DNA of 34,368 nt from a virus: positions 1 to 34,368 of IMG/VR virus record IMGVR_UViG_3300004369_000062; one strand, given 5' to 3'. Each line of letters starts with the position of its first letter. Positions within the stretch are counted from its first letter, which is position 1. Both the position numbers and the translations under genes were made by a program. Below are positions 1-17,754 of the stretch, one piece after another. Below the pieces are notes generated by a model. The model did not search any database. It saw nothing but the letters and a program-made list of their open reading frames with translations, and had not been told where the DNA came from.

Positions 1-3000
1 GAACCCATTGTAGACGAATTTGTCATCGCTGTTTATGACAACACGCTTTTAATTCCAAAAGTTGATTTTTATATTGATAAAGACTTATTCATTTTTAAAA
101 CTGCTCCTACTAATGGAAGATTCCTCTCCATATATTCTGTAGAGGCACCTGTTCCATCATTCGGTTCTTCTGCTTCTGCATTTGCTCGTGTTAATGAGAA
201 TGGGGAAATTGACAATATTGTTGTAAGCGAATTCGGAACCCAATATCGTTATGAGTATCCACCAAAGGTAACAATTCAATCTCTTAGCGGTAAGGGTGCC
301 TCTGCAACTACCCTTGTTAATGGTATTGAATCTGTTACCCTCTTAAATGGCGGACAGGGTTATAGTGACACTAATCCACCAGCAGTTGTAATTGAATCTC
401 CCGTTGAACCAGGTTCGATTCCAGCACAAATTAATGCCACCGTTTCTAACGGTAGCATCACTTCACTTACAATTGTAAGTTCTGGTAGTGGATATACATT
501 TACACCCAGAATTAGTTTTAGACAACCAGGCGGTGCTAAATTAAATCCCCCAACAATTGTAGGTGGATCAATTAGTGGAGATGTTACTGTATCTCAAACT
601 GGATTCGGATATACTACAACACCAGAAATTTATATTGATGAACCTACTGGTGAGAATCCAATTAAAGCATCTTTGAGAGCTGTTTTAACAAATGGTGAAG
701 TTACCTCTGTTGAAGTTCTAAACGCTGGTCAGGGGTATCTGACTACCCCTAGAATTGCTGTAATTGACCCTGTAGGTGCTAGCGTATTAGAAACGACAGT
801 AGACTCTAATGGAAGACTTGTTGGAATTGAATTACTTAATGGTGGCAGCGGATATACAGATGTTCCCTCTGTATATGTTGTAGACAACAGACCTAATGGT
901 GGTACTGGAGCAACTGCAGTTGCTTCTATTTTTAATGGTAGAATTACTGACATTAACATCACTAATTTTGGTAATGGATATAGTGTTACCGAACCACCAA
1001 CTATTGTAATTCAGTCTCCCCCACAAGGTAAAGCATCTGCAACTGTTGGATTAAACAAAGTTACTGGATTTACTGTAAATAAAGCAGGTTCTGGGTATAC
1101 AAAAGCTAAGTTTGAGGGTTGTGCAAGGGCAGCTAGTGGCATTGTTAATTATCTTGAAGATGGTAATGCTGTATTTTCTAATAATACTACTGCCACTGCA
1201 TCTTCTGTAGGTACTGAAGTAAAATGTTTGGATGCTCTTTTTGTCAAGAGACTTCTTGATAAGTATACTGAGCAGTTCTTACCAGATGTACCTTCTTTAG
1301 ATTATAAATCGATTGACGTTCGCACTGCAATCAAAACGATTAAAGATTTTTACTCTGCAAAGGGTACTTCTTTTAGCATTAGTTATCTCTTCAAGTTGCT
1401 CTATGGTGAGCAAGTAAGTGTTTCGTATCCAAAAGACCAAATTATTAAACCATCTGCAGCAACTTGGTCTGTTGATACAATCTTGCGTGCTACTTTAGTA
1501 AGCGGAGACCCTGCAAATATTAGAGACGCTTTGATTGTACAAGAAGCAGATATTGCAGATGTTAATGTTGGAAATGCAAGTGCTTTGGTTGAAAACTTTA
1601 TTTCAATCAAAACATCAGATGTTGAAATTTATGAGATTGTAATCTCCGAAGAAACAATTCAGGGGCAATTTACAGTACCATACAAGACAAAATTAGCAGA
1701 ACCATTAGCAACTGATACTAGTATTATCACAGTTGACTCTACTATTGGATGGCCAGAAAGAAATGGTGAATTTGTAATTGGTGGGGGTGAATTAGTACAG
1801 TACAAAGAGAAATCCTTAAACCAGTTTATTGAATGTACTCGTTCCGTAAATGGTGTTGTTGAAGATTGGGATTCGGCTACAGAAGTTACATCGAATTTCC
1901 GAGTTTACCTTAATAAGGGAACTCCTCAAGAAGTTGTAATGAACGTTGTTGGTATTGTTGATGCCCAACAAACAACCTTAACTGACACTGGTTCTTACTA
2001 TCTTCCAGGAGACAAATTAACAGTTTCTAAACTTGGTGGTACAAGCGAACGTTCTGAATTAACAACTTGGTTGTATAACGTTAAAAAGTTAATTAGTGTT
2101 ACTGATGTTCAATTTGGTGGTATTGATGATAGATTTGCAAGCGTAACCTGTCAAAATCCTCATGGTCTTCTCGTTGGAGACCAGGTTACTGTTTATGGTG
2201 CAAATCCCATCATTTATAATGGTTCTTTTCTCGTAACATCTAGAGATAGTGAAACTGTCTTTCAATATCAACTACCACAACCAGCAACGGTTGTTCCACA
2301 GGGCAATATTTTAGTTTCTGTTGATTTGAATAAGGGTAAATCAACCAATAGTGCAATTTTAAATGCCATTGGTCCTTACACTACCAATGTTCAGAACTCA
2401 TTCTTTAATGATGATTATGTTTACGTTGCTTCCACTGGTATTCCAAACTATGAAGTAGGACCTTTCCCAGGGTCTGCTTTATTGCCAGGAAACCAAAGAA
2501 AATTAAATAGATTCCCATTAACACCCGTTACAATTTCCACTAAGAATCTTATTAATCCTGGTCCAATTGGAACTTGGGTTAACGGTGTATCTATTTGGTC
2601 TTATAAGTCAACAGAAAGTAGAACTTTTGGTGCTGTCACAAGTATTGACATTACAAATGCTGGTTCGGATTATGATGCAGCATCTCCACCAAATATTACC
2701 ATTTCAAATGGTGGTGGAACTGGTGCTACTGCTAGTGTAGTTGTTGATGGTTCTGTTAGTGAAATTGCTGTAACTAATGGTGGCAGTGGATACACATCTT
2801 CTCCTTTGGTGTCTATTGTCGGTGGCGGTGGCGCAGGAGCATCGGCAACAGCAATTATCACAAAGGGAGTAGTATCACGTATTCTTATTAATAATGGTGG
2901 TATTGGATATACTTCACAACCATCTATCACTATTGTTGGAGGTGGTGGTCAAGGTGCTACTGGAACAGCGTCTGTTCGTGGTCCAGTTAAGTCTATTAGC

Positions 3001-6000
3001 GTTACTAATGGTGGTAGTTCCTATACATCTAAACCAGATATTACATTAAGTTCTGGAACTGGAGCAGTTGCTCAGGCAATTGTAAACGATGGTAGAATCA
3101 TTTCTATTGCTATCATTTCTGCTGGTCAGGGATATACCACTGCCCCAGAAGTTACAATTCAAGGAGAAGGTTTTGGTGCTGTTGCTCGAGCTGTAATTGA
3201 TACCGATGGAGAAAATGCTGGTAGAGTTACTAGTATTCAAATTATTAACAGGGGTATTGGATATTCTTCTGGAACTACTGTAATTAACTTAAATTCTATT
3301 GGTTCTGGAGCAACATTTAGTGCTAATGTTTTCCAATGGACTTATAACTTGCAAAAGACCTCTTTCTTAGATTCTTCTAAGGGTGGAGTTTTTGCGGGAT
3401 ATAATAACCAGTATGGTGGTGAATATGCACACCTTTCCAATCCCCAGAGATTGAGATATATTTTAGGTGATAACTTATTCCAAAATACTTCCAATCAAAT
3501 TCTTGAACAAGAAGACCAACTTGAGCACTCTCCTATTATTGGGTGGGCATTTGACGGCAATCCAATCTACGGTCCATATGGATATGATGACCCTACCAAT
3601 CAAAGTTCGCAAATTGCAAGACTCAATTCTTCTTACAGATTAAAGACGAATATTGTCTTTAATGACATTACCAATCCATATCCAAGTAGAGTTGCAGGAC
3701 CATTGCTCACTGAAGAATCTGCTGGAACATTTATTGAAGATTACGAATATATCTTTGGATTAGGTGATTTGGACCAATATAATGGTCGTTTTTGTAAAAC
3801 ACCAGATTTTCCAAATGGTAGATATTGCTATTTTGTTACTATTGATTCAACCGAAGCAGGAAATGCTGTTTTCCCATATGTTCTTGGACCAAGTTTCAAC
3901 TCTGTTGTTGACTCTTGGAACTTAAATTCTGATGCTGTACAGCAAAATATTCCAACAGGTGTTGTTAGATATCGTGATCCATATGAAAATGTAGATATTG
4001 ATGTAGAAAGAACTCCTAATGCATCTACAAATTCTTTAACAACTGAAGATGGTGATGTTTTATTGTTTGAGGTTGAAGATGAAAATAGAGATGGAATTAT
4101 TTCTCAAGATGAAACTGATGACCCAGATGAAATCTTTGAAGAATCTCCATTACAACTATTTGATTATTTCCCCAAAGTAAGATTTGATTCTAAGGTCGAT
4201 ATTGAAGTAGAAACTACAACCAAATTTGAAAATGCCTCTGTAACTGGATTTACAGTTGAAAATGCAGGGCAAAACTATCAAGTAAATGATAACTTAATAT
4301 TTGATAATGCAGGAACAAGTGGAACTGGAGTCTCTGCTAGGGTTTCTAGAATCAAAGGCGAAGAGATTAGTTCTCTTACTTTTGAAAATATCAGTGGAGA
4401 TAATTTTGGAGTCTTAACAACTACCAATCCACATAACCTTGAAGTTTCGGATACTATATTCTTAGATTATAGTCCAGTAATGGACAATACAAATAAACAA
4501 TTTACCGTTCGTCAATATAAAGGTATTGAAGAAATTGTTATTAATCAAGTTGGTTCTGGGTATAATGAAGATATTCCACCTACAATTATCATTGATGGTG
4601 ATGGACAATCTGCAGAATTGCAAGCAGTTGTTAGTAGCGTAGGTTCTATTGATACTGTAAATATTATTAACTCTGGTTATGGGTATACTTCAAATCCTCG
4701 TGTTATTTTAAGTCATCCCCAAATCTTTAAAAAAGCAGACTATTATGTTTCTTTAATTGAGAATAATGATTATGTTAAGGTAAATGATGTTGCAGTTAAT
4801 TCTAACAAAGAAGTATTTGTATGTGGTAAAACAAAAGATGTTAGCGGAAATACCGTTGCTTTTGTTTCAAAACTTTCTGCTACTGGCGTTAAGGAATGGG
4901 AAAAAACCTTAGAAAGTACATCTGGATTGAACTATACTGAAGCACAAAAACTCTATGTTGATGGGTCTAATGTTTGGGTTGTAGGTATTTTAAATTCGAA
5001 TAGTCTGATTCTTAATGCATATAATCCTGATATTTTCCTTGCAAAATATACTCAAAGTTCTGATGGATTGTCTGCAACTTTAGCATTCCAAAATGCTTAT
5101 TCTGGCATTTCTGGAGCTACTAGAGCAGATTATGTGACTTCTATTAAGAAGTATTCCGATACTAGATTTGTTATTGGCGGTTATACAAATACTAATTCCT
5201 CTAATCCCCATGATGCCTTTATTGCCACAATAGACACTACTGGTAATTTTGCAATTAAGAGAAAGTTAGCGTCGGCAGCAAAATCTGAAAAACTTACAGA
5301 GTTTGTAATCAGTGGTGATAACATTTACTTCTGTTTAGAAACCGCATCCAGTGATGTTTCTAATGATGTATCTGTAGCATTTGGTAAAGCTACACTTGGA
5401 GTTAGTGCGATTACTGTTGATTGGATTTACAATGTCAGTAATACTTTATATTCCTTCCTAGACACTAGTATTACGAAAGATGAATTTAATGAATACTATA
5501 TTACTGCTACTCTTAGATTAAAATCGGATAATACTACTAAAGACAGTTTTTGGGTTGGTAAATTCGATTCTACTGGAGACACTATTTGGAATAAGCGATA
5601 TCTTGTCTCTGGTGGTTCGGTAACAGTAGCAGAAAAATCTGCAATTGATATTTTTGGTGATTTAAATGTTGCATTTACTAAAGTAGCAACTTCTAATCTT
5701 AAAAAGACCGTTGAGTCTGTCAAAATTGGGTATGATGGCATTATTAAAAATCATACTTCAAATGACTTCAATTTGAATAATATTGAAGGTATTACTGTAC
5801 ATTCTTTGGATTCTGACGTTTCTGGTGACGTGCATCTGTTTGGTCAAACTTCTTGGAACCGTAATGAGTTTATTTTTGAGTTTGCCGAAACAGATGACGC
5901 TACTGACACCACAGGTCATTATACACCAACACTGATTGGAAATGATGCTACGGAGTCTCTTGCTCTTGTTGGTGATGGTGTAGCGAAACTCTTGGGTGAG

Positions 6001-9000
6001 GATATTGGAAACCCAGGTATTTGGGAAAATGCTGCAATCAAATTTGCTGCATCTGACCTTGGAACAAAACTGGGAGAGGATTGGACCGTTGAGTTTATGC
6101 TCTACAAGGACGCTGCAACGTCTCAAACACAGTCCCAAACCCAACAGACATTATTTGCAATTGGAGACGCTACAGACGCTACTGGAGGTCTCTGGCTTTA
6201 CTATGACATGGGTAATGGACAATTGGAATTGGTTGTTACTAACAACACTACCTCAATCAACGCTACTGGTTCTGGATTGACCTCTGCACAAACGAATATG
6301 TTTGCAGATAATTCCTGGCAGTTTGTTGGACTTAAAAAAGAAAACAATACCTTTACTGCGTATGTAAACGGTATTCAAATCTTTACGGGAACAATTTTAA
6401 ATACTTCTCTTGGTAATAAAGACCTTCATTTTGGTAATATTCCTGGAAAGAATGCAACTCCTGCAAGTTTTGCCGCTGCATATCAAGGGCAATATTATCT
6501 CGATAATCTTCGTTTGAGAAACAGGGCTGTAACACCTACTGTACCTACAGACATTACATCTCTTCCACCTGTTGCAACATATGCGCTCGCATTTAACTGG
6601 GTTGATGATGCATGGTTTACTACTAATTTAAACCAATATGATTATATTGATTATGCTGGTTTTGGTATTAAAGTTGATAAAAATGCAGATAGTGCAAGAT
6701 TGGGAGATAAAGGAGAGCAATCAAATACTGGCATTGGTCTCGAAAGAAGTGCTGTTAGTATCGTTACAGGTAGCACTCTTACAATTACTTCTGTAGGATA
6801 TGCTTTAGGTGATAGTGGATTCCAATCTTTAGACTTTGATGATGCTATCACTACAATGTCTCAAGGTACAGAAGCATTGGAATATTCCAATGATGTCTGG
6901 TCTTCTAGAACTGCTACGGTTCCTTCTCCTGGTTCTAAAAAATTAAGTGTTACTGCTGTTGTAAAAGACCGTTATTTCTTTAAGGTTACTGATACCGTAA
7001 AAATTGATAACGTTCAAGAATTGACAATTAATCAGTCATTTACTTTTACTCTTGGCAGTAAACTTGTTCTTAATAACAGTGGAACTTTCGTTAATAGCGG
7101 TTATATCACAAAAATTGATAATGCAAATAAGAAAATTTATCTTGCCGTAAATAACAATTCTTGGTCTAATGATTTGAATATTGGTGAGTTGTCCACCGAA
7201 CAATTCTCTGAACAAAATACTTATGGAATTGTAGGACCAATTCCAAACGATATTAATGAAATTACGGCATACAATTTTGGTCAAATTGACAATACTACAC
7301 CTGGAACTTTTGATATCGATTTGGCAAACTTTGATGCTCCCGAAGGTGGAAGTAATAATCTGGACCAATTTGCCAAATTCAAACCATACACTGAAACCGA
7401 ATATAGTATTAGAATTGACGAAGTTTCTACATCATCGTTTATTGTAGGTTCTGTAATTACTCTGAGTGGCAATGATATTAGTTTTAATAGCGATTATACT
7501 ACCGCTCAAATTACTAATTTGACTGGAGTATTAAAAATCAGTGTAGTCTCCAATTTAACAAAAGTTTTACAAGTCACTGCAGTTTCTAATAGTGATGAGG
7601 TTTATGTAATTACAGATACCAGTCATTATTTAAGTGAAGGTGAAGTAATCTTTGTTGATGGAAATCCATCCGAGCAAGTAGGTCAGATTGTTTATGATGA
7701 ATATGATGGATCTTTCTCTGTAGATAAAGTAATCAGCCCACTGGAATTTACATATAAACTTCCCCAAAATGCTGTTACATCCCCAGCAACTTCATCTGGA
7801 GACGTAAGTATTTTTGTTAAATCTCCCGTTCTGAAGATGTATTATGGTCATCAATATTTGTTTGACCTCAGTCACTCTTCTATGGTTGGTGGAAATCTGT
7901 CTTTTGCTAAGGATAATTTATACAAACTTGAGTATTCCTTTAACTCTATTGAACGTATTGGTACTCCTGGACTTACTGGAGAGGGTCAACCAACCCCCAC
8001 AGTCAAATTTAAGGTTGACGAAGATATTGTCACCAATATTTCTTATTACTTCGATCCATCGAGAACAGGTAACGATTCTCCTGTAATTCCTGGTAGCTAC
8101 TTAGATGTTACATTCTCTCCTTATAGAGGAACATTTACGATTAGTAGCATTTCTGGTGCCACAATTACTCGTGGAGCAGACACATTTAAGTTCCCATTAT
8201 TAAATGAACCCGAAGGAAATGCAGTAGTAAGTAATGCTTCTTACAGTACAAGTTCCGTAAAAGCAGTTGGTTCTATCTCTGACATTCGTATTGTTAATCC
8301 TGGTGGATTCTATCAAAAGCTCCCCATCGTAACTGGTATTCAATCAACTAGAAATATTGAAAGGGTTCAAATCAACGACCCTGGAACCGAATATGCTGTT
8401 GGTGTATACAATGGCGTTCCTATTCAAGGAGATGGTGAAGGTGGTTTTGTACAAATCACTGTTGCTGATGGAACAGATGACGAAGGAACACTTATTCCTG
8501 GTCAGATTCAGAAGGTCTTGGTAACCTCTCCTGGAAGAGGATATACCACTGCTAGTATCGATATTCCATCAATTTCTGGAATTCTTGGTGCTGGATTGAC
8601 TGGTTCTGGTGCCGACTTGGAGGTTGTTATCCCTCCATTTGGTACTGGAGCATCTATCTTTACCGTTGGTGCTAATGTTGGTAAAATCAAAAAACTGAAA
8701 AACAATAACTTTGGTTATGATTATCCTCATGACTATACATTGAGACCAGAAATTACATTCCCAATCAACTGCCAGTTAACATCTACTAGTATCTTAGATA
8801 GCATTACTGTTACAGACCCTGGTTCTGGATATACTCAGGCACCTGCAGTTGTTATTGAAGGTGGCGGCGGTTCTGGCGCTATTGCTGAAGCAACTATTAG
8901 AAATGGTAGATTAGACCAAATTATTGTCAAAGACCCTGGTGCTGGATATTCATCCACACCTACAGTAACACTAAAATCCTCGTTTAACTATGTTATCAAC

Positions 9001-12000
9001 GTTGACCTTGGATTACTTCAGTTTGCCTTCCCACATGGTATTCCTAACGGATCCGAAGTTACTCTGAATGTTGTAGATACTGGTGATGGAGCAGACTTCC
9101 CACTTGCTGCTGGCGCTTTGGGTAGATTAAACAGTTCTACCACATATTTTGCAATTACTGGTTCTGCAAACTCTCTTGAAGATGACCAGATGAAGTTGGC
9201 AATTACTGCTACTAACGCAGAACTTGGTGATGCTATTAGTTTTGTCAATGCTGGTGTTGGTCGTCAGCAAGTATTAACTGAATCATTCGGTGGTGCTGCA
9301 ACTGCTAATGTTACTACCTCGACCTTCCTCGAAGGTGAACTTGTTTATCAAGGTGATTCTCTTGCTACTTCTACAGCAACTGGATATGTTTCCACTAACA
9401 GCGGATGGCAAGTTGGTCCTAGAATCCTGAAGATTGTAAATTACATTGGAGATTTTATTGAAGGTCAAACTGTTACTGGTGTTGTATCCAAGTCCTCTGG
9501 TTTAATTAGCGACCTCAAGATTGCTAAGGGCGTTCTTGATATTGGTTCTATTACAAAGACCACAGGACAATTCATTGATGATGTTGGTAAACCCTCCGAG
9601 ATTATTCAAAAAATCCAAGACTCTTACTATTATCAAGATTTCTCTTATGCTGTTAAATCTGCGGTTTCTATCAGTGAGTGGAAGGATATTCTTATTAAGA
9701 ATGTACACCCAGCATCGTTTAAGGTATTTGGTGAATTAAATCTTAGCGAGTATTCTAATATTCCAAACAAGACAACTGATTTCCAGTTAACTAAATCTGT
9801 TGAACTGGCACAAGAAGCAATTGTTCCAAATATTCAAAACTTTGCTCTGGTTGAACCAATTTACAGTGAGTTTAATAATACTGAAGTTCTATTCCGTCAA
9901 AAACGTCTAACCTCTTCGGAGAATATTCTTACCTCGGTTGTACAAAGAGTCGATGATATCTCAAACTTGTTTGATGGTGAAAGAATTGCATTCCCTCTGA
10001 CAGTTGATGGCAACAACATCGTTGCTAATGCCAACCAATTAATGATTGTTTTGAATGGTGTTGTTCAAACTCCAAATACATCCTTTGAAATTCAGAATGA
10101 TTCTATCGTATTCAGTGAACCACCAGCACCTCCTGCTAGTGTTAAGTATGTAAACACCACAATTGAACAAATTAATACTGTTGAATTGCAGTTTATCAAT
10201 ACAAGTGGCATTTTCCCCAACATTGGTAATACCGTTGTTGGTACTGCTTCTGCTGCTCGCTTGACAGTTACCAGAGTTTCTGGAAATAGCATTTTTGGTT
10301 TTGTTACTCAAGGTACTTTCCAAAATACTGAACTTTGCACAGTAGGCGCTACTGGATTTGCTGCCAATCTTTCCGCTCAAATTGCAGTATCTAATAGTGG
10401 TTTGTTTATCTTTGGCGAGACTGTAACAGACCTTTCTGGTGATACTGCAGTTGTTGAAAGTATTAACTTGGAAACAGGACAAGAATTACCTCTTGCAAAA
10501 CTGCGTTATACCATTGGTCCTTCTACAACAACAGTTGAAGTTATTGATTATTCTGCAGCAACAGACTCTCCTGTATCGGATGGAACTTTTGTCTTGGGTG
10601 AAACCTATCAGTTTGGTTCTGAAATCTTCTTAATCAACACTATTACTAATGGTGTGGAATCTACTACGTTAAACGTAACGAGAGCACAATCTGGTACAAC
10701 TGCTGTATCTCAACAAGAAGATGCTCCTATCTATGGAACTCAGATTGCAATCAATAATGAATTGACATTAAGTAAGACTACTGGTACTTATCAGTCTACT
10801 CCTGGTCTCTTTGATATTCAACTTAACGACATTATTATTGGTGCTCAGTCTGGCGTTGTTGCTAGAATTACATCTACATCAACTTATCAGGATCCTGTAA
10901 CTCAAGAGTTTATCGGTCAAGTTAATATTTCGGAAGGTTCTTCGTTCTTTGGTCTTCTGTTCAACAGAATTACTTCAGCAACTTATCCAAATGTCGTTCT
11001 CGACGATATTTCCAAGTCTCAAGTAACTATTGTCGATTTTGAAGATAATACAACTCCATTTAACACCAATTTCCCAGCGAATGAGTTAATCAACAACTAT
11101 GTTATTCCTTATGATAATGCAAGTGGAGATTTCCAAGAAAATGAATTTATTAGAAATTATCTGATTGAATATGGTAATAGTAGTGGAGATTATGTTGCTG
11201 GTGAGGGTGCTGTAATTAGAAAAATTACTTTTAAAGACCAGCAAGGAACTGGATTCTTCTCGTCGGGTCAAATTATCAAGACTAGAGATACTAAGGCAGA
11301 AGTTATTGGATATAACCAAGCACGTAAGACAATCTATCTTGGTAAGATTGGTAGAATCTTAAATTCGGGTCAGGATTATCATACAGCAACTTTCAACAAT
11401 AGTGCTCAGTTAGATACTGCTCAGAAGAAGTTTGGTTCTTCTTCCTTACTACTGGATGATGCCACTACTGATTATCTCTTCATTCCAACTTCTACTGAAT
11501 TTGGTTTTGGAACAGGAGCATTTACTGTTGAATGCTGGATTCGTCCAGATGATGTCTCTGCTGGTGATAGACATATCTTTGATATGAGAGATGGCGGTGG
11601 TGATGCAAATGCTGGTAGACTTTATGTTGCCACAAACCAAGTACGCTTTAATATCGGTGGCAGTGACGTTGTTACGTCTGGTGCAACAACTCTTTCTGCA
11701 GATACTTGGCATCACATTGCTATCACTAGAAGTGGTACTGATTTGAAGTTATTTGTTGATGGTTCTGAAGTTGGAAGCACCACTAACAGTACCGATTTAG
11801 GTTCTACAAAACGTCTCTTTATTGGATCTAATTTTAGTGCTGCAAATAGATTCTCTGGTCACATCGATGAGTTTAGAGTTTCTAACACTGGTCGCTATAG
11901 CGCAGCATTTACACCACTTAACGGTATCTTCCAAGGTGATAGCAATACCAAACTACTTCTTCACTTAGATGGTGAAGATGCTCAAACTTACACTGAAGAC

Positions 12001-15000
12001 TGGTCTGGTGGTGAATCTCTTACTAACGGTGAAGAGTTCCACAATGATGCAATCTTAGCAACCTCTAGACTTGCTGGTGCTCCTGCTGGATTCACAGGTA
12101 ACTCCCACAGAGTCTATAACGCAGCAGAATCTATCAGACTGAACAAAGACTTTATTGCTCAAGAAACGGTATATCTGCTTCTCCAGCAATATCCTTCTTT
12201 AGTTATTCCTGGTGGTAATGTTAACTGCGAAGATGACATTCGTGATGTCTTAGACCAGATTATCGAAGACCTTAAGAATGGTTCCAACAGTCACATGTGG
12301 GATGCTGCAGCAATCTATGTTGATAGAACTCAGAATCCTGTAACTCTCAATCATATTGAGACTGAAGTTACTGAAACCATCTGGGCATTCAACAAAGTCG
12401 ATGAAATGCTTCAGTACATCATCAATAACGTTGCTTGGACTGTTCAGGGCGACCATGGATTGACTCAGACTCTCAATACCGATGCAACTAACATCTATGA
12501 GACTGGTTCTGCAAACCTTAACAACTGTGCTGACGTTTATACCACAATCAATAACTTGATTGATATCCTGACGGATACCCTTTCCGAAGCAGATACCCCC
12601 AGTGCAACTCCTGATGGCGACCATCTTGGCACCATCACTAAGGTTGAACCTGCGTTTGAGTTCTTTGGTGGAACAGTTGATGCATTCTACGAAGTAGCAT
12701 TTAATGTCGATTACCATAATGGAACTAATGATACAATTTATACAAATCAAATTGATACCGACTCTAGAAATAGATTCTATGATGCTGCAAACTTAATTCG
12801 TAAGAATCGTGCTGTTATTATTGATAAAGCATCTGCAGACCTCCTCAACAGGTATCCTGACCTTGCTCTGGACATGCCTAGAAATGAAGGAGGAACTGGT
12901 GATGGAACCCTGCGTTGTAAGACTGATTTGGGTCTCATTTTAGATGAGATTGCAACTGACATTCAAAATGGCGGTAATATCAATACCGTTGGTGCTGCTA
13001 AGTTCTATCTTGGTGCCAATGATATTCTGCTCCACATTCGTTTGCAAGTATGGCAGTCTGTTTTTGCTCATAATCGCCTTGGTTTCTACATGAAACAGGC
13101 AATTACTGGTGATTTGGATTATACTAATACCACTAATATTATTGTAGGTGATTGGGGAATTACTAATGACCCAGGTGGATGTGCTGACGTTCAGTCTGCA
13201 ATTGATACTTTAATTGATACCCTTAATGATGTCATTGCACCAACTGATAATGATTATGCAATTGCTGCAGATAGACTTTACTTCAATAGAGATTATATTC
13301 GTGATGAAATTTTTGGATTAGTCGAAGACGAATTAACATATACTTTGAATAATGTCAATTTTGTTGTATTTACTTACAATAGTGAGTTAGATATTGAAAG
13401 TTTGATTATTGCTATTATTTCCGATCTTCAAACTGGTGGTAATAATAGCAGTATTGCTGAAATGGAAAAATATTTGACTGCTGCTCTCAATTTGACCACC
13501 ATTGACAATGTTCTTCCTGCTGCAATATTTGCACTGGAGAAGTTAAAAGAACTTGGAGAATATGCAATTAATAATGTTCTTTATAATAGAGCAAGTACAG
13601 GTCCTGTTGGTAGCTATTCTGCTCTTCATGCCACTCAAGATGCATATAGAGATGGTGAGTCTCCAGTAACAATTGCAAATCCGTATGCGAGATTTGGTGT
13701 ACTTGTCGATTCTCTGAAGGGAATAATTTCTCCTGGTGGCGACGAGGCAAGACATGCCGCAAAACAAATTCAATATAATGAAAATTACTATAAAGATGAA
13801 CTAGAAACAATTGTTAATACTCAATTTGGATCTGGCTCTTGGGTTTATGATGATTTTGTTGGAACAATTGTTGACGATTTAGTACACGACTTAATCATTA
13901 CAGATACCACAGATACAAGTACTGCATACACGATTGCTATTGAAACTGTTACTGATTCGTTTATCGTTGGTGAGACAGTAACTTCTAGTGGTGGTGGAAC
14001 TGCAGATGTTCTTGAATATGATGAAGATTCTGCTAAGTTATATATTGGCGATTTTACTGGAACTGCTTGGGTTGCTGGTGATACGTTAACTGGCGGAGAA
14101 TCTGGTGCTACTGCAACTATTTCTGGTGGTGGAACTGGTTCTGTATTCTTTGATGGTTCTAATGACTACCTGAGAATTCCTTCGGTAAATGCATCGTTTG
14201 CTTTTGGTACTGGTCCAATTACCTTTGAGTGCTGGTTTAGACCTACCACTACTGGTGGAGGACATATTTCTGGCTCTACATCCGACAACTTCAATATTTT
14301 CTATGGAACTGGAAATATTGGTTTATGGGGTGGTAGTGGAACATTTATGAATTTTGGTGCAAATATTCAAATTAACACTTGGTATCATGTTGCTATTGTT
14401 AGAACTGGAACTGGATTTAATCAAACTTCATTCTATCTGAATGGCAATAGAATTGGTTTTGGTACTTGGCAAACAAACTATGGTTCTATTGAATTATTAC
14501 TCGGTCGCCCCAATCTTGGTGGTGGTAATGAGTTAGATGGTTACCTCTCTAATGTAAGACTACTTAAAGGTGTTGCATTGTATAGTGGAAGTGGATTCCA
14601 AGTCCCAACAACACCACTCTCTGCGATTTCTGGAACTTCACTTCTTACTTGTCAGGGAGCTTCCATCACAGATGCTAGCTCGTATAATCATACAATCAAT
14701 CCACAAGGTAATGTTGTTGGGGGAACAACTCCTAGCCCATTCTCTACATCTGGTGGTATAAGTGCTTCTTACGATTGGTACAATAATCCTGGTAATGTTA
14801 AAATTCTTAACACTGCTAGAAACATTATTTCGCCCATCGAAGGTTTGACTTCCACCACAAACCTTTTCCCATCACCAGAAGATTTGAGTTCTACTGGATG
14901 GTCTGGTGGCGGTATTCAGGTTGTTACCGACAACTTAGATTCCCCAGATAATACATTAACGGCAGATAAATTGGTAGCAACCAGTGGATTCTATGGATTC

Positions 15001-17754
15001 CATCAATGGTCTAAAGATTTTAGTGTAGATGCTTACACAACTTTTGATGATATTGCAGCACGCTTTGATTCTGATATTATTACTTTCGATGCTGGTACTA
15101 ATGCAACTGACGAGAATCGCACATACACCTTCTCCGCTTTCTTAAAAGCGGGCGAATCTAGTCTTATGAGATTGGAAGTTATTCTTGACCCAGCTGTAGG
15201 CGGTAAGATTGCATTTGTTGATGTCGATTTGAATTCGGGAACAGTAGGAACCATATTCACTGTAGGGAACGTTACTTCTCCTGCTGCTGGTGTCATTCCA
15301 TATGGTAATGGTTGGTATAGAGTTTATGTTAGTGTAACGTTTGGATTTGGTATTTCAGTTGTTCAAACTCGTTTTTGGGTTAGAAGTTCTACAGGAGCAT
15401 TTACATATACTGGTAATGGCATCGATGGTTTGTATGCTTGGGGCACTAAACTAAATGTTGGTCTTCTTGACCCATATGTAGCGGTTTCTGGAAGAATATT
15501 CTATTCCGATACAGATTATAATATCAAGAATTTCATTATGGATGCACTTGAAGATTATATGGGTAAATCTCTCAATAATACTTTGACTTCTCCATCCACT
15601 AATGCTGGTTTCTATAAATTCTATGATTCTACTATTGCCTCCTCTTATACAAAGGCAACAATTGATTCTTTCATTAGATATCAGTTGAATATCATTAGAA
15701 ATCAGTTGGATAATAGCAATTATTATATTGATATTAATACCAATAATGCAATTGTCGTTCCATCCAAGACTTATGGCACTCGTGATATTCCAGTAGGAAT
15801 TGGCGGTGGTATATCTAATTCGGAGTACTTCTACGGACTTCAAAGTAATGTATATGGTGAAGTTGAAAGACTTTCACTTAATGAAGGTAAGATTGTTAAG
15901 GTCTACCAGAGATTCCGTATCGATGGTGACATCACTGATGGTCCCTTCACAATGAATGAAACCGTCTTTAAACAAGGTGCTCCTAGTGTAACTGGTGTTG
16001 TTTATGGATTCTATGAAGATGAAAACTACAAATATTTGGATGTCGAAATAACTGCAGGACCATGGGCAATTACCAACACTATTATTGGCGATGAAAATTC
16101 AACTTCAGCACAAATTAGTGCTATTGAGAATCGTATTCATATAATTGATTTGTTGGGTAATTTCTCTGAGGATACTCCCTTCAGAGGTTACACCTCTACA
16201 GAAACCGCTACACCAACTGATTTCTTAAAAGTTCAAGCAGCGGTAACAAGTAATGTAGGCGGAACACTTACTGTTGATACAGAGACACTCGAAGGTCAAT
16301 TCGAAACAACTAGTGTTGTATATCCAGAAACGTCTAGAGAATATCTCGAAGTTTCCAAGTTCGCTGGTCTGGATGTTAAGATTGGAGACAGAATTGCTTC
16401 CAATGGATATATTAGACTTGGTGTTGCTTTTATTGGTGGATTAACTGATTTTACAGTAGGGAATCGTCTTTATAATGTTTCTGGAGGTGTTCAGGATAAT
16501 AATACATATGGCATTATTACTTTTGTTGATATTGATAATAACTTTATCTACATTCAGGAATATCAGGGAACTTTCCAAAATGGTGACACAGTTGGAGACT
16601 ATGGATTGGGTGAAACCTTCCCCATTGGATACGCTTCGATTTCTACCAAAGTTGCAGTAGCAGGTGCTGCAGCAGCAAGAGTTCAAGATATTCGTGCTGC
16701 TGGTTTGAATACGAGACTTTACATTTCTGATATTGATGGAGCATTTGACATTAAGGATTCTATTATTGGTCCAGATAATTATGAAGCGGTTATTGTTTCT
16801 AAGGATGAACTGAAAGCTCGTGTTCAACGCGCATTTAGAGGATTTGATGGCACTCAAACAACATTTGACCTTACCATTGATAATGGCACTGCATATTTAC
16901 CTGACCCTGCAGGTCATCTTTTGGTATTTGTTAATGGTATTCTCCAACCTCCTGGTGCAACAAATGCATTCACCGCATTCTCGAATCAAATTCAATTTAC
17001 AGAGGCACCAGATCTCGGCGCATCATTTACTGGATTCTATGTTGGTAAACTGAGACAACTTGATGATATCTCCTTTGAGTTTGACTCTTTACGTCAGTCC
17101 TTCAACCTTAAGCGTAATGATGTTTTCTACTCGCTCACGCTTACGGATGGTGTTCAGTCCAGTACAATTAGACCAGAAAATAATATCATTGTTTCTCTCA
17201 ATGGTGTTATTCAAGAACCTGGTGTTGCGTTTGAGATTGTTGGTTCTAGAATTATTTTCTCTGAAATTCCTCGCGTAGGTTCCACATTTGTTGCCTTCTC
17301 TTATGTTGGTTCTGAAGCAGACGTTGATGCTGCTGAAGTTATCCCACCAATTGAACCAGGTGATTTTATTGCAATTCAAGGTGAAACTGAAGACCGAGAA
17401 GTTGCAGTTATTGAATCTTCTAACTCTCTAATTACTTTTGATTATCTTGGCTCTGTCTTCGGACAGAAGGCTGCAGGAACAGCAGTTCTTACCAGTGGAT
17501 TTATTGATGATGTACAAGTTACATCTGGCGGTTCTGGGTATCTTTCTAGACCAACAGTTAGAATTGACTCCATTTCTGGTTTTGACGGAAACATCAAAGC
17601 TTTAATTGGTGTTGCTGGCATTGAAATCTCTAATTCTGGTACTGGATATCAAAATCCAAATATTGAAGTTGAGACTAGTGTTCCTGATGATTGGACTGCT
17701 CCTAATCTTGCTGATTATGGTGAAGAGTTGATTGACCCCGAAATAGTTTCCTAA
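1..17754 (+). CDS. Giant virion structural protein, 5'-truncated by window edge
   Basis: The frame is open from base 1 to a TAA at 17752-17754, giving 5917 visible residues; the true start is upstream. A TTG at 673 could be mistaken for the start, but in-frame coding with the same repeat type runs before it. Visible order (residues counted from base 1): beta module 1-57; GGxGY repeats 58-370; a DFYxxKGT/LYGE/YPKD motif block about 449-485; a YHYH-type domain 799-1300 split by GGxGY repeats 881-1110; an EF-hand-like loop 1360-1371; a propeller-like region 1581-1960; LamG domains at 1961-2180, 3787-3997 and 4713-4900; GGxGY repeats 2754-2997; a YYQDFSY/VHPASFKVFGE block about 3208-3245; helical repeats 4034-4640; a jelly-roll domain 4953-5155; tandem LNGVxQxP modules 5615-5774; and terminal GGxGY repeats. 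No signal peptide or membrane segment was seen. It lies just before the gp8 cluster, in the slot held by T4 gene 7, so I infer a baseplate or fibre component that displays glycan-binding domains. Structural role is likely; the exact location in the virion is unknown. Confidence 0.88.
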   Translation, partial: EPIVDEFVIAVYDNTLLIPKVDFYIDKDLFIFKTAPTNGRFLSIYSVEAPVPSFGSSASAFARVNENGEIDNIVVSEFGTQYRYEYPPKVTIQSLSGKGASATTLVNGIESVTLLNGGQGYSDTNPPAVVIESPVEPGSIPAQINATVSNGSITSLTIVSSGSGYTFTPRISFRQPGGAKLNPPTIVGGSISGDVTVSQTGFGYTTTPEIYIDEPTGENPIKASLRAVLTNGEVTSVEVLNAGQGYLTTPRIAVIDPVGASVLETTVDSNGRLVGIELLNGGSGYTDVPSVYVVDNRPNGGTGATAVASIFNGRITDINITNFGNGYSVTEPPTIVIQSPPQGKASATVGLNKVTGFTVNKAGSGYTKAKFEGCARAASGIVNYLEDGNAVFSNNTTATASSVGTEVKCLDALFVKRLLDKYTEQFLPDVPSLDYKSIDVRTAIKTIKDFYSAKGTSFSISYLFKLLYGEQVSVSYPKDQIIKPSAATWSVDTILRATLVSGDPANIRDALIVQEADIADVNVGNASALVENFISIKTSDVEIYEIVISEETIQGQFTVPYKTKLAEPLATDTSIITVDSTIGWPERNGEFVIGGGELVQYKEKSLNQFIECTRSVNGVVEDWDSATEVTSNFRVYLNKGTPQEVVMNVVGIVDAQQTTLTDTGSYYLPGDKLTVSKLGGTSERSELTTWLYNVKKLISVTDVQFGGIDDRFASVTCQNPHGLLVGDQVTVYGANPIIYNGSFLVTSRDSETVFQYQLPQPATVVPQGNILVSVDLNKGKSTNSAILNAIGPYTTNVQNSFFNDDYVYVASTGIPNYEVGPFPGSALLPGNQRKLNRFPLTPVTISTKNLINPGPIGTWVNGVSIWSYKSTESRTFGAVTSIDITNAGSDYDAASPPNITISNGGGTGATASVVVDGSVSEIAVTNGGSGYTSSPLVSIVGGGGAGASATAIITKGVVSRILINNGGIGYTSQPSITIVGGGGQGATGTASVRGPVKSISVTNGGSSYTSKPDITLSSGTGAVAQAIVNDGRIISIAIISAGQGYTTAPEVTIQGEGFGAVARAVIDTDGENAGRVTSIQIINRGIGYSSGTTVINLNSIGSGATFSANVFQWTYNLQKTSFLDSSKGGVFAGYNNQYGGEYAHLSNPQRLRYILGDNLFQNTSNQILEQEDQLEHSPIIGWAFDGNPIYGPYGYDDPTNQSSQIARLNSSYRLKTNIVFNDITNPYPSRVAGPLLTEESAGTFIEDYEYIFGLGDLDQYNGRFCKTPDFPNGRYCYFVTIDSTEAGNAVFPYVLGPSFNSVVDSWNLNSDAVQQNIPTGVVRYRDPYENVDIDVERTPNASTNSLTTEDGDVLLFEVEDENRDGIISQDETDDPDEIFEESPLQLFDYFPKVRFDSKVDIEVETTTKFENASVTGFTVENAGQNYQVNDNLIFDNAGTSGTGVSARVSRIKGEEISSLTFENISGDNFGVLTTTNPHNLEVSDTIFLDYSPVMDNTNKQFTVRQYKGIEEIVINQVGSGYNEDIPPTIIIDGDGQSAELQAVVSSVGSIDTVNIINSGYGYTSNPRVILSHPQIFKKADYYVSLIENNDYVKVNDVAVNSNKEVFVCGKTKDVSGNTVAFVSKLSATGVKEWEKTLESTSGLNYTEAQKLYVDGSNVWVVGILNSNSLILNAYNPDIFLAKYTQSSDGLSATLAFQNAYSGISGATRADYVTSIKKYSDTRFVIGGYTNTNSSNPHDAFIATIDTTGNFAIKRKLASAAKSEKLTEFVISGDNIYFCLETASSDVSNDVSVAFGKATLGVSAITVDWIYNVSNTLYSFLDTSITKDEFNEYYITATLRLKSDNTTKDSFWVGKFDSTGDTIWNKRYLVSGGSVTVAEKSAIDIFGDLNVAFTKVATSNLKKTVESVKIGYDGIIKNHTSNDFNLNNIEGITVHSLDSDVSGDVHLFGQTSWNRNEFIFEFAETDDATDTTGHYTPTLIGNDATESLALVGDGVAKLLGEDIGNPGIWENAAIKFAASDLGTKLGEDWTVEFMLYKDAATSQTQSQTQQTLFAIGDATDATGGLWLYYDMGNGQLELVVTNNTTSINATGSGLTSAQTNMFADNSWQFVGLKKENNTFTAYVNGIQIFTGTILNTSLGNKDLHFGNIPGKNATPASFAAAYQGQYYLDNLRLRNRAVTPTVPTDITSLPPVATYALAFNWVDDAWFTTNLNQYDYIDYAGFGIKVDKNADSARLGDKGEQSNTGIGLERSAVSIVTGSTLTITSVGYALGDSGFQSLDFDDAITTMSQGTEALEYSNDVWSSRTATVPSPGSKKLSVTAVVKDRYFFKVTDTVKIDNVQELTINQSFTFTLGSKLVLNNSGTFVNSGYITKIDNANKKIYLAVNNNSWSNDLNIGELSTEQFSEQNTYGIVGPIPNDINEITAYNFGQIDNTTPGTFDIDLANFDAPEGGSNNLDQFAKFKPYTETEYSIRIDEVSTSSFIVGSVITLSGNDISFNSDYTTAQITNLTGVLKISVVSNLTKVLQVTAVSNSDEVYVITDTSHYLSEGEVIFVDGNPSEQVGQIVYDEYDGSFSVDKVISPLEFTYKLPQNAVTSPATSSGDVSIFVKSPVLKMYYGHQYLFDLSHSSMVGGNLSFAKDNLYKLEYSFNSIERIGTPGLTGEGQPTPTVKFKVDEDIVTNISYYFDPSRTGNDSPVIPGSYLDVTFSPYRGTFTISSISGATITRGADTFKFPLLNEPEGNAVVSNASYSTSSVKAVGSISDIRIVNPGGFYQKLPIVTGIQSTRNIERVQINDPGTEYAVGVYNGVPIQGDGEGGFVQITVADGTDDEGTLIPGQIQKVLVTSPGRGYTTASIDIPSISGILGAGLTGSGADLEVVIPPFGTGASIFTVGANVGKIKKLKNNNFGYDYPHDYTLRPEITFPINCQLTSTSILDSITVTDPGSGYTQAPAVVIEGGGGSGAIAEATIRNGRLDQIIVKDPGAGYSSTPTVTLKSSFNYVINVDLGLLQFAFPHGIPNGSEVTLNVVDTGDGADFPLAAGALGRLNSSTTYFAITGSANSLEDDQMKLAITATNAELGDAISFVNAGVGRQQVLTESFGGAATANVTTSTFLEGELVYQGDSLATSTATGYVSTNSGWQVGPRILKIVNYIGDFIEGQTVTGVVSKSSGLISDLKIAKGVLDIGSITKTTGQFIDDVGKPSEIIQKIQDSYYYQDFSYAVKSAVSISEWKDILIKNVHPASFKVFGELNLSEYSNIPNKTTDFQLTKSVELAQEAIVPNIQNFALVEPIYSEFNNTEVLFRQKRLTSSENILTSVVQRVDDISNLFDGERIAFPLTVDGNNIVANANQLMIVLNGVVQTPNTSFEIQNDSIVFSEPPAPPASVKYVNTTIEQINTVELQFINTSGIFPNIGNTVVGTASAARLTVTRVSGNSIFGFVTQGTFQNTELCTVGATGFAANLSAQIAVSNSGLFIFGETVTDLSGDTAVVESINLETGQELPLAKLRYTIGPSTTTVEVIDYSAATDSPVSDGTFVLGETYQFGSEIFLINTITNGVESTTLNVTRAQSGTTAVSQQEDAPIYGTQIAINNELTLSKTTGTYQSTPGLFDIQLNDIIIGAQSGVVARITSTSTYQDPVTQEFIGQVNISEGSSFFGLLFNRITSATYPNVVLDDISKSQVTIVDFEDNTTPFNTNFPANELINNYVIPYDNASGDFQENEFIRNYLIEYGNSSGDYVAGEGAVIRKITFKDQQGTGFFSSGQIIKTRDTKAEVIGYNQARKTIYLGKIGRILNSGQDYHTATFNNSAQLDTAQKKFGSSSLLLDDATTDYLFIPTSTEFGFGTGAFTVECWIRPDDVSAGDRHIFDMRDGGGDANAGRLYVATNQVRFNIGGSDVVTSGATTLSADTWHHIAITRSGTDLKLFVDGSEVGSTTNSTDLGSTKRLFIGSNFSAANRFSGHIDEFRVSNTGRYSAAFTPLNGIFQGDSNTKLLLHLDGEDAQTYTEDWSGGESLTNGEEFHNDAILATSRLAGAPAGFTGNSHRVYNAAESIRLNKDFIAQETVYLLLQQYPSLVIPGGNVNCEDDIRDVLDQIIEDLKNGSNSHMWDAAAIYVDRTQNPVTLNHIETEVTETIWAFNKVDEMLQYIINNVAWTVQGDHGLTQTLNTDATNIYETGSANLNNCADVYTTINNLIDILTDTLSEADTPSATPDGDHLGTITKVEPAFEFFGGTVDAFYEVAFNVDYHNGTNDTIYTNQIDTDSRNRFYDAANLIRKNRAVIIDKASADLLNRYPDLALDMPRNEGGTGDGTLRCKTDLGLILDEIATDIQNGGNINTVGAAKFYLGANDILLHIRLQVWQSVFAHNRLGFYMKQAITGDLDYTNTTNIIVGDWGITNDPGGCADVQSAIDTLIDTLNDVIAPTDNDYAIAADRLYFNRDYIRDEIFGLVEDELTYTLNNVNFVVFTYNSELDIESLIIAIISDLQTGGNNSSIAEMEKYLTAALNLTTIDNVLPAAIFALEKLKELGEYAINNVLYNRASTGPVGSYSALHATQDAYRDGESPVTIANPYARFGVLVDSLKGIISPGGDEARHAAKQIQYNENYYKDELETIVNTQFGSGSWVYDDFVGTIVDDLVHDLIITDTTDTSTAYTIAIETVTDSFIVGETVTSSGGGTADVLEYDEDSAKLYIGDFTGTAWVAGDTLTGGESGATATISGGGTGSVFFDGSNDYLRIPSVNASFAFGTGPITFECWFRPTTTGGGHISGSTSDNFNIFYGTGNIGLWGGSGTFMNFGANIQINTWYHVAIVRTGTGFNQTSFYLNGNRIGFGTWQTNYGSIELLLGRPNLGGGNELDGYLSNVRLLKGVALYSGSGFQVPTTPLSAISGTSLLTCQGASITDASSYNHTINPQGNVVGGTTPSPFSTSGGISASYDWYNNPGNVKILNTARNIISPIEGLTSTTNLFPSPEDLSSTGWSGGGIQVVTDNLDSPDNTLTADKLVATSGFYGFHQWSKDFSVDAYTTFDDIAARFDSDIITFDAGTNATDENRTYTFSAFLKAGESSLMRLEVILDPAVGGKIAFVDVDLNSGTVGTIFTVGNVTSPAAGVIPYGNGWYRVYVSVTFGFGISVVQTRFWVRSSTGAFTYTGNGIDGLYAWGTKLNVGLLDPYVAVSGRIFYSDTDYNIKNFIMDALEDYMGKSLNNTLTSPSTNAGFYKFYDSTIASSYTKATIDSFIRYQLNIIRNQLDNSNYYIDINTNNAIVVPSKTYGTRDIPVGIGGGISNSEYFYGLQSNVYGEVERLSLNEGKIVKVYQRFRIDGDITDGPFTMNETVFKQGAPSVTGVVYGFYEDENYKYLDVEITAGPWAITNTIIGDENSTSAQISAIENRIHIIDLLGNFSEDTPFRGYTSTETATPTDFLKVQAAVTSNVGGTLTVDTETLEGQFETTSVVYPETSREYLEVSKFAGLDVKIGDRIASNGYIRLGVAFIGGLTDFTVGNRLYNVSGGVQDNNTYGIITFVDIDNNFIYIQEYQGTFQNGDTVGDYGLGETFPIGYASISTKVAVAGAAAARVQDIRAAGLNTRLYISDIDGAFDIKDSIIGPDNYEAVIVSKDELKARVQRAFRGFDGTQTTFDLTIDNGTAYLPDPAGHLLVFVNGILQPPGATNAFTAFSNQIQFTEAPDLGASFTGFYVGKLRQLDDISFEFDSLRQSFNLKRNDVFYSLTLTDGVQSSTIRPENNIIVSLNGVIQEPGVAFEIVGSRIIFSEIPRVGSTFVAFSYVGSEADVDAAEVIPPIEPGDFIAIQGETEDREVAVIESSNSLITFDYLGSVFGQKAAGTAVLTSGFIDDVQVTSGGSGYLSRPTVRIDSISGFDGNIKALIGVAGIEISNSGTGYQNPNIEVETSVPDDWTAPNLADYGEELIDPEIVS
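172..1110 (+). repeat. GGxGY beta-repeat array 1 (in giant protein)
   Basis: Encoded units of about 40-50 residues follow the pattern xxVxVxNGGxGYxxxPxVxI, then a Gly/Ala-rich turn and xAxVxxGxV. Examples are LLNGGQGYSDTNPP (from about base 340), SSGSGYTFTP, NAGQGYLTTP and LNGGSGYTDVPSV. This repeat type is common in phage fibre and baseplate proteins and is expected to form stacked beta elements. At DNA level the units share short near-identical words such as aatggtggcagcggatata. Confidence 0.8.
2395..3900 (+). other. YHYH-type domain split by a repeat insertion
   Basis: The first part has GPIGTWVNGVSIW from residue 854 and the second part has FDGNPIYGPYGY (residues 1184-1195), SSYRLK, EDYEYIFG and a PDFPNGRYCYFVT strand. 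These are the landmarks I associate with the YHYH domain family (PF14240). Between the two halves lies a GGxGY repeat array (2641-3330). The place where YHYH is expected, just before a NPxxLRYxLGDN stretch, reads YAHL (residues 1142-1145). The call rests on remembered family landmarks. Confidence 0.6.
2641..3330 (+). repeat. GGxGY beta-repeat array 2 (in giant protein)
   Basis: This is the most regular array in the window. Successive units carry TNAGSDYDAASPP, TNGGSGYTSSPLV, NNGGIGYTSQPSI, TNGGSSYTSKPDI, ISAGQGYTTAPEV and INRGIGYSSG, separated by GGGGxGA turns and spaced about 115-130 bases apart. It sits inside the YHYH-type domain. Confidence 0.85.
4225..4725 (+). repeat. GGxGY beta-repeat array 3 (in giant protein)
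   Basis: Diverged units: ENAGQNYQVNDN, NQVGSGYNEDIPP and NSGYGYTSNPRV. A HGL-type beta module (TTTNPHNLEVSDTIFL) is interleaved between the first and second units. Confidence 0.65.
4740..5880 (+). other. Beta-propeller-like (SBBP-type) region in giant protein
   Basis: Residues about 1581-1960 contain repeated blade-like strands: DVAVNSNKEVFVCGKT followed by AFVSKLSATGVKEWEKT; KLYVDGSNVWVVGI followed by IFLAKYTQ; DTRFVIGGYT followed by DAFIATIDTTGN; and YYITATLR followed by FWVGKFDSTGDTIWNKR. The scheme [AxD..N.YVxGxT]-[DAFVxKxDxxGxxxWxK] matches SBBP beta-propeller repeats (PF06739-like). I count roughly six blades by eye. It is probably a binding platform; no catalytic residues were identified. 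Confidence 0.55.
5881..6540 (+). other. LamG/concanavalin A-like domain 1 in giant protein
   Basis: The order of strands AIKFAASDLG, WTVEFMLYKDA, LFAIGDAT, GGLWLYYDM, WQFVGLKKENNTFTAYVNG and YYLDNLRLRNRAV fits the LamG_3 jelly-roll pattern (VEFWLYxxD ... WxxVxLxxxxxTxxxYxNG ... GxxDNxRxxxR). This fold commonly binds glycans; the ligand here is unknown. Confidence 0.65.
7825..8145 (+). other. Possible degenerate cupredoxin-like domain in giant protein
   Basis: The stretch YYGHQYLFDLSHSSMVGGNL, then IERIGTPG, VKFKVDED and NISYYFDPSR resembles the phage cupredoxin-like scheme (RGxTYxFDxSxxSxxGHPLxFS ... GTPG ... LYYYCxxHxxM). The Cys-x2-His-x2-Met ligand loop is absent: after YYF comes DPSRTGN. 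The identification is tentative. Confidence 0.35.
8260..8990 (+). repeat. GGxGY beta-repeat array 4 (in giant protein)
   Basis: Units include VNPGGFYQKLP, NDPGTEYAVGVY, TSPGRGYTTASI, TDPGSGYTQAPAVVIEGGGG and KDPGAGYSSTPTVTL. These favour DPGxGY over the NGGxGY of array 2, so they form a separate subfamily of the same repeat. Confidence 0.75.
11360..11990 (+). other. LamG/concanavalin A-like domain 2 in giant protein
   Basis: This is a textbook LamG_3 layout: FGSSSLLLDDATTDYLFIP, FTVECWIRPDD, HIFDMRDG, GRLYVATNQVRFNI, WHHIAITRSGTDLKLFVDG, FIGSN, FSGHIDEFRVSNTGRY and a closing LLLHLDGED. It is the best conserved of the three LamG units and probably adheres to cell-surface glycan or protein. 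Confidence 0.85.
12100..13920 (+). repeat. Alpha-helical repeats of about 155-160 residues (in giant protein)
   Basis: Diverged units begin YNAAESIRLNKDFI (12115), YDAANLIRKNRAVI (12778), IAADRLYFNRDYI (13261) and HAAKQIQYNENYY (13753). Each is followed by E/D-I-hydrophobic helices; the first two carry a Cys-containing DDIRDVLDQIIEDLKNGSN or CKTDLGLILDEIATDIQNGGN segment and a later NNCADVYT or GGCADVQS segment. This contrasts with the all-beta character of the rest. I have seen similar repeats in marine phage structural proteins, but I know of no established function. The fourth unit is interrupted by the LamG 3 and jelly-roll insertion. Confidence 0.65.
14137..14700 (+). other. LamG/concanavalin A-like domain 3 in giant protein
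   Basis: The strands VFFDGSNDYLRIP, ITFECWFRPTT, NFNIFYGTGNIGLWG, WYHVAIVRTG, FYLNGNRIG, ELLLGRP and LDGYLSNVRLLKGVALY match the LamG_3 pattern (FDGxxDYLxxP ... FExWF ... WYHVAxVRxG ... NGxxxG ... GYxSNVRxxxGxAxY). The closing LLTCQGASITDASSYNHT is also typical of this family. Confidence 0.85.
14857..15465 (+). other. Carbohydrate-binding-like jelly-roll domain in giant protein
   Basis: The order NLFPSPEDLSSTGW, PDNTLTADKL, RTYTFSAFLKAGES, VDLNSGTVG, GNGWYRVYVSVTF and GLYAWGTKLNVG matches a jelly-roll module common in phage tail fibres (LFPxSExxxxxxW ... PDGTxTADKL ... YTFSxxLKAGE ... GNGWYRxxV ... WGAQLExG). It is inferred to be glycan-binding. Together with LamG 3 it interrupts the helical repeat series. 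Confidence 0.7.
16845..17320 (+). repeat. Tandem LNGVxQxP beta modules (in giant protein)
   Basis: Two adjacent copies: LLVFVNGILQPPG ... NQIQFTEAPDLGASFTGFY, and IIVSLNGVIQEPGVAFEIVG ... IIFSEIPRVGSTFVAFSY. A third copy lies at 9946-10170 (LMIVLNGVVQTPNTSFEIQN) and a fainter one at the window start (bases 1-171). The scheme resembles a short beta-sandwich repeat used in phage fibre proteins. Confidence 0.65.
17500..17670 (+). repeat. GGxGY beta-repeat array 5 (C-terminus of giant protein)
   Basis: Two units, VTSGGSGYLSRPTVRI and ISNSGTGYQNPNIEV, close the protein before an acidic tail of about 27 residues. Confidence 0.75.

Follow-up and report, generated by a model that had tools for sequence, protein, structure and literature searches.

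A giant gene of a T4-like marine cyanophage very probably encodes gp7, a baseplate wedge protein enlarged around a small three-piece core

Gene content of the locus

The window, meaning the whole stretch of DNA that was analysed, corresponds to a whole linear IMG/VR record (34,368 bases) and is a fragment of a T4-like cyanophage of the Kyanoviridae, its closest annotated relative being Synechococcus phage S-8S29 (Kyanoviridae). Half of it is occupied by a single frame, followed by genes of the tail baseplate:

1..17754, plus strand: giant gp7 (baseplate wedge initiator; very probable), 5,917 codons (open frame, phrog_701, complete relatives)
Upstream of position 1, outside the window: about 241 N-terminal residues of giant gp7, including core piece 1
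17791..19011, plus strand: gp9-like wedge/tail-fibre connector (PF07880, E 3.3e-9; phrog_677)
23217..24749, plus strand: gp8 wedge subunit (PF09215, E 2.4e-18; phrog_438)

Units of the GGxGY type, which abound in the giant, are also present in the phrog_708 protein encoded at 19015-23178 (4 units) and in gp8 (1 unit), and the repeat is therefore shared within the baseplate module. Positions 24749-31960 encode a 2,403-aa DUF4815 protein (phrog_358), named VrlC or neck protein in related records; the entire baseplate module is enlarged. A further large virion gene starts at 32477-34366, where it is cut by the window end (Mtd_N, PF18454; phrog_697, 2,079 columns). The giant exceeds all other window genes together, as the original prediction had stated (5,917 versus 5,484 aa, with the last gene cut by the window end).

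Extent and integrity of the frame

Frame 1 is free of stops over bases 1-17751, the stop codon being 17752-17754, while the longest stop-free run in 30 first-order Markov simulations of the window was 169 codons. The earliest in-frame start codons are TTG 673, ATG 1939 and GTG 2809. Since GGxGY units detected by a unit HMM are continuous over residues 115-399 (bases 343-1197) and thus cross base 673, TTG 673 is not the gene start, and the proposal that the first Met/TTG codon is internal and that the protein begins upstream holds: 241-244 N-terminal residues lie upstream of the window edge in 27/27 complete relatives aligned. The nearest complete relative, L006, is about 92% identical to the window gene and comprises 6,158 residues in full, and a 6,157-codon frame was found in L007; L006 and L007 are independent assemblies from different samples. 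The open frame of the window is the C-terminal 96% of the gene, set against the 6,158 residues of L006.

Values of dN/dS against L006 were 0.05-0.12 in 12/12 blocks, and against L007 0.05-0.14 in 12/12 blocks; being low in every block, they indicate purifying selection across the entire frame. In the stretch covered, the frame is unbroken in 76/80 loci of a first set of relatives and in 80/80 loci of a second set, with some contigs common to both. The interrupted copies of the first set are L016, L035, L049 and L054, the last of these having a stop at its first codon, at the contig edge. The break in L035 is a one-base indel relative to L067, for which reason gene fission was rejected as a sign of separable domains; the break in L049 is a single in-frame stop. 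The window contains a single 42-base tandem array (TRF). The frame is a real, single, translated gene.

Gene slot and family

The frame matches phrog_701 (6,136 columns) in all four of its quarters with E 0, over columns 242-6135, residues about 4164-4898 being poorly covered. The label of this family, 'head and packaging, virion structural protein', is unsuited to a baseplate gene, and across records the same gene is called structural protein, hypothetical protein, putative fiber, YadA domain protein, VrlC, baseplate wedge subunit or baseplate wedge initiator. That it encodes a very large virion protein, as originally proposed, agrees with the detection of phrog_701 members in two published virion proteomes: virions of S-SM1 gave peptides of T4-GC969 (PMC3037559), which is SSM1_102, a 6,180-aa protein located between gp6 and gp9 in the S-SM1 record, and S-SZBM1_208, a 'baseplate wedge initiator' of 6,619 aa and 724 kDa, was reported with 71 virion peptides and 13.5% coverage (PMC9146016).

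Every annotated relative compared has the gene slot directly after gp6, the cyanophage order being gp25-gp6-giant gene-(gp9)-...-gp8. In L087, which is the same contig as L006, gp6 is immediately upstream of the ATG of the giant gene, and in S-8S29 the gene begins directly after gp6 and encodes 6,279 aa. Small proteins fill this slot in X1 (498 aa), Yut2 (503), Melnitz-3 (896), phiN3 (1,006), HTVC008M (1,016) and T4 (1,032); the record of pf16 is devoid of gene names, and the gene preceding its 523-aa gp7-like protein was taken as gp6. Proteins of middle size are found in S-CRM01 (1,454 aa), S-CREM2 (1,937), S-CAM3 (3,045), S-SM2 (4,156) and P-HM2 (4,454), and giants in the cultured phages syn9 (6,076 aa), S-CAM8 (6,167), S-SSM5 (6,171), S-SM1 (6,180) and S-8S29, the largest being those of S-TIM4 (6,603 aa), S-SZBM1 (6,619) and P-TIM40 (7,351).

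Sequence and structural relationship to T4 gp7

An HMM built from seven short gp7-like proteins, with T4 left out, recognized T4 gp7 at residues 646-759 (domain E 1.8e-10) and 865-905 (0.0029) in a set of 25 sequences, and matched 11/11 long relatives; shuffled and reversed giants gave E 0.27 or worse. The same model also matches the window gene at 19015-23178, in its repeats only (best: model columns 273-391). When 177,635 distinct PDB sequences were scanned with a profile of 52 small gp7-like proteins, just two matched at E<=1, both of them gp7: 9f4a from a Klebsiella phage (E 1.6e-5) and T4 gp7 (0.0064). With a profile of the giants' N-terminus (45 giants and 4 small proteins), 9f4a gp7 was again the top PDB match (E 0.012), followed by chance matches; core piece 3, searched against the PDB with its flanking sequence only, gave no match. 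The homology of the giant to T4 gp7 is strong through intermediates and weak by direct BLAST.

PF23786, a Pfam wedge model of 284 columns, is met in the giant in three collinear pieces (columns 5-53, 164-221 and 235-280) that score 14.3, 24.3 and 16.7 bits each, the curated cut-off of 27 not being reached; the short relative of pf16 passes with 40.8 bits. The T4 gp7 domain families PF21427, PF21428 and PF21456 did not appear when the two halves of the giant were searched at E<=0.01. These models match T4 gp7, four other gp7-like proteins miss them too, and they seem to be narrow.

Structure comparison with Foldseek alone gave low TM-scores, and VIA-align was then used as a second look. Residues 728-901 of a model of L087 align to T4 gp7 760-850, which is domain V, with Z 8.2-8.3 (only just above the level that VIA-align calls common), an rmsd of 4.2-4.4 over 86-88 residues, and ranks 1 and 2. 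A small protein of the Melnitz type matches the same domain with Z 10.4-10.5 and an rmsd of 2.8-3.3 over 88 residues. This match, to T4 763-852, spans model residues 233-616, and insert B therefore seems, in the model and as read from the range ends only, to be located inside domain V. In the AlphaFold model of L087 1-960 confidence is low for the core helices (pLDDT under 50 at 662-733), and the GGxGY region is predicted as well-folded beta structure (pLDDT about 90 at 340-610). Taken with the gene slot, these data indicate that the giant frame is, very probably, the gp7 of a T4-like marine cyanophage.

A three-piece core and its outgrowths

Sub-HMMs place the core in L006 at residues 4-48, 655-728 and 3427-3491, in collinear order, with gaps of 606 and 2,698 residues between the pieces and a tail of 2,667 behind piece 3; the window residue number is the L006 number minus 241. 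The three collinear pieces were found in 19/19 non-T4 proteins tested, E-values of the piece sub-models being computed on a set of 20 sequences. In T4, piece 1 is found by the full short-gp7 model, and the piece-1 sub-model gives only a chance match (112-125, -3 bits), owing to which T4 insert lengths were left out of the comparison. Core piece 2 is equivalent to T4 gp7 up to residue 759, and core piece 3 to about 862-905. The large size of the protein, about 6,158 residues, is thus due to very large extra domains inside and behind a small, ordinary gp7 core, which are arranged along the window as follows:

1..1239, plus strand: part of outgrowth A, between core pieces 1 and 2 (piece limits; GGxGY units at 343-1197)
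1240..1461, plus strand: core piece 2, window residues 414-487 (sub-HMM 62 bits in L006; PF23786 columns 164-221; T4 733-759 match)
1459..1980, plus strand: putative T4 gp7 domain V equivalent, at least its first part, window residues 487-660 (L087 model match)
1981..9555, plus strand: outgrowth B, from domain V to core piece 3 (piece limits; GGxGY blocks 2650-3336, 4540-4779, 8521-9042)
9556..9750, plus strand: core piece 3, window residues 3186-3250 (sub-HMM 68 bits in L006; PF23786 columns 235-280; T4 866-902 match)
9751..17751, plus strand: C-terminal outgrowth, 2,667 residues (piece limits)

The outgrowths carry GGxGY repeats, a total of 20 units, each about 40 residues long, that fall into five blocks (the unit HMM found none in reversed sequences), as well as recognizable domains and regions of differing conservation:

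3409..3852, plus strand: YHYH domain (PF14240, E 5.1e-32)
6040..6537, plus strand: laminin G / ConA-like lectin-fold domain 1 (PF13385, 31.9 bits, cut-off 27.6)
11461..11889, plus strand: laminin G / ConA-like domain 2 (PF13385, 96.7 bits)
11461..15750, plus strand: length-variable block, about residues 3821-5250 (alignment of 27 complete relatives)
12028-12450, 12757-13107 and 13252-13587, plus strand: three copies of a 110-140-residue repeat (jackhmmer from the first copy)
14152..14568, plus strand: laminin G / ConA-like domain 3 (PF13385, 60.7 bits), within the module of residues 4711-4918
16801..17751, plus strand: conserved C-terminal end, residues 5601-5917 (alignment; GGxGY units 17518-17724)

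Within outgrowth A, residues 214-291 of the L087 model, which partly correspond to window residues 1-50, are predicted to form a small domain like those of phage tail proteins, with Z 7.8 to the tailspike TSP4 of CBA120 and 6.5 to a 607-residue chain of a Klebsiella phage baseplate; on this modelled likeness, the domain may be a docking site for another virion protein.

Giant gp7s are already known in marine cyanobacterial T4-like phages; the three-piece core with fixed insertion points is new here, in that no description of it was found in the open-access literature searched. The phrog_701 / T4-GC969 proteins of S-8S29, S-SSM5 and S-SM1 represent the same gene, in the same gene order and at full length (81% identity over the first 1,000 residues in S-8S29), and differ from the window gene mainly in the variable block. 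S-SZBM1_208 is homologous, with 44% identity across the two longest stretches of the alignment and with the same slot and core pieces; it exceeds L006 by 461 residues, most of them in the tail. T4 gp7 shares with the giant the slot after gp6, the core (646-759 and 865-905) and the domain V fold; its residues 1-640 and domain VI were not found in the giant, and T4 in turn is devoid of the outgrowths. The short gp7-like proteins of X1, Yut2, pf16, Melnitz-3, phiN3 and HTVC008M (498-1,016 aa) display the same three pieces in the same order, with inserts A of a few to about 150 residues, B of 226-788 and tails of 16-222, compared with about 606, 2,698 and 2,667 in the giant; in X1, Yut2 and pf16, the gaps between the core pieces are 4-5 and 226-243 residues.

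Length variation among relatives

In the alignment of the 27 complete relatives, conservation is higher over window residues 1-3400 and 5600-5917, and residues 3820-5250 vary. The module that contains the third lectin domain (4711-4918) is missing in 19/27, while inserts of about 90-410 residues follow residue 4174 in 21/27 and inserts of about 77-107 follow 3823 in 17/27. A search of 23 relatives' records found the conserved C-terminal end in all of them (23/23), and in 19/23 frames of 7,305-9,131 codons whose matched part is free of stops; the remaining four (L014, L035, L054, L069) are broken or ended by the contig edge. The longest gp7 frame, 9,131 codons or about 27.4 kb, is that of L028 (the same contig as L297), where the core pieces are located at 5-51, 663-736 and 3446-3509 and the extra residues sit in the variable block, between repeat copies 1 and 2; no Pfam family matched these residues. 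A gp6 tree of 20 phages groups all eight sampled phages whose gp7 exceeds 6,000 aa in a single clade with support 100/100, so that the growth of a structural protein is traceable. A pelagiphage-type gp7 copy with one in-frame stop was also observed (L185:4001-7036).

Alternative explanations

A protein of this size had been expected to be either one long fibre or a precursor cut during assembly. The first of these is consistent with its great length, its beta repeats and its three lectin-fold domains, with a 'putative fiber' note in the syn9 record and with the matching of single domains by several fibre PHROGs; it is at odds with the gp7 core and the gp7 gene slot, and, unlike in a fibre with a variable tip, the variation lies within the chain and the C-terminal end is conserved. 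Position, core motifs and the PDB profile search lead instead to T4 gp7, a monomeric baseplate wedge protein, with lectin-like and repeat domains built in, and a single long tail fibre thus seems improbable. An even smaller probability is assigned to the proposal that the real gp7 is the phrog_708 gene at 19015-23178 and that the giant is something else; the S-CAM8 record does label the homologue in this manner, and YHYH and GGxGY domains are common to both proteins, but the short-gp7 HMM meets the phrog_708 protein in its repeat part only, not in the three core pieces.

Cleavage of a precursor into several virion proteins at assembly would suit the size of the protein and the conserved ends that flank a variable block, and isolate KJ019030 is annotated with two genes, of 3,901 and 2,124 aa. 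No cleavage evidence was found, however; S-SZBM1_208 is reported as one 724-kDa entry, by peptides only (PMC9146016), the split in L035 is a one-base indel, and the published peptide counts of relatives do not decide the matter. We judge a precursor to be about as improbable as a fibre. Finally, an assembly error that joined genes through the repeats, a doubt raised in the original prediction, could draw on the presence of repeats and on the four interrupted loci of the first set, but is practically refuted by the unbroken copies in both sets, by the single tandem array and by the complete genomes of cultured phages, which carry the same gene and so answer the doubt.

Proposed architecture and host contact

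In T4, gp7 is a monomer, present in six copies per tail, that takes part in a strictly ordered wedge pathway, contacts gp6, gp8, gp9 and gp10, and on triggering moves one of its domains outward through about 45 degrees (PMC3004832). The likely overall reading is that the giant is a wedge scaffold gp7; its outgrowths may also build the outer, host-facing part of the baseplate. The gp7 core, roughly 200-300 residues in three distant pieces, would fold together, bind gp6 and thereby start each wedge, as T4 gp7 does, the contact with gp6 and the six copies being assigned by homology with T4 gp7. From this core would hang outgrowth A (about 600 residues, with GGxGY units), outgrowth B (about 2,700) and the C-terminal outgrowth (about 2,670), the last consisting of the lectin-bearing, length-variable block capped by the conserved end. 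The outgrowths would project from each wedge to form the outer baseplate surface, where they could bind adjacent proteins such as gp9 and make contact with the host, standing in for T4 components that are missing from cyanomyoviruses. If the T4 copy number is assumed, six chains of 6,158 residues would weigh about 4 MDa, taking the 109 Da per residue that follows from S-SZBM1_208 (724 kDa, 6,619 aa).

That the outgrowths, with the lectin-bearing variable block, face the host is a possibility to which we give somewhat less than even chances. It is suggested by the absence from cyanomyoviruses of T4 wac, g10, g11, g12, g34, g35 and g37, as reported in PMC2984593, and by the electron microscopy of S-SZBM1, in which PMC9146016 describes no long tail fibres. 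S-CREM2 has both a long tail fibre and a 1,937-residue gp7 (PMC10665884), which calls for caution with regard to a simple trade of fibre for gp7. Experimental evolution has yielded baseplate and fibre mutations, which the available text of PMC6224464 and PMC9910659 does not tie to giant gp7.

Implications

The labels of this family conflict (head and packaging, fibre, YadA, VrlC, hypothetical), and its placement as gp7, with mass added at fixed points around a small core, provides a guide for virion maps; the fixed-point layout also indicates which part to test for host recognition. The slot presents one baseplate protein in a graded series, from 498 to over 9,000 residues. Tentatively, in this cyanophage clade the wedge scaffold may have taken over the job of the fibres, the variable lectin block, on all six wedges, serving as the host-recognition surface. 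If this were true, adsorption and the trigger of tail contraction would be combined on one chain, in which the block grows among relatives until the protein exceeds 9,000 residues.
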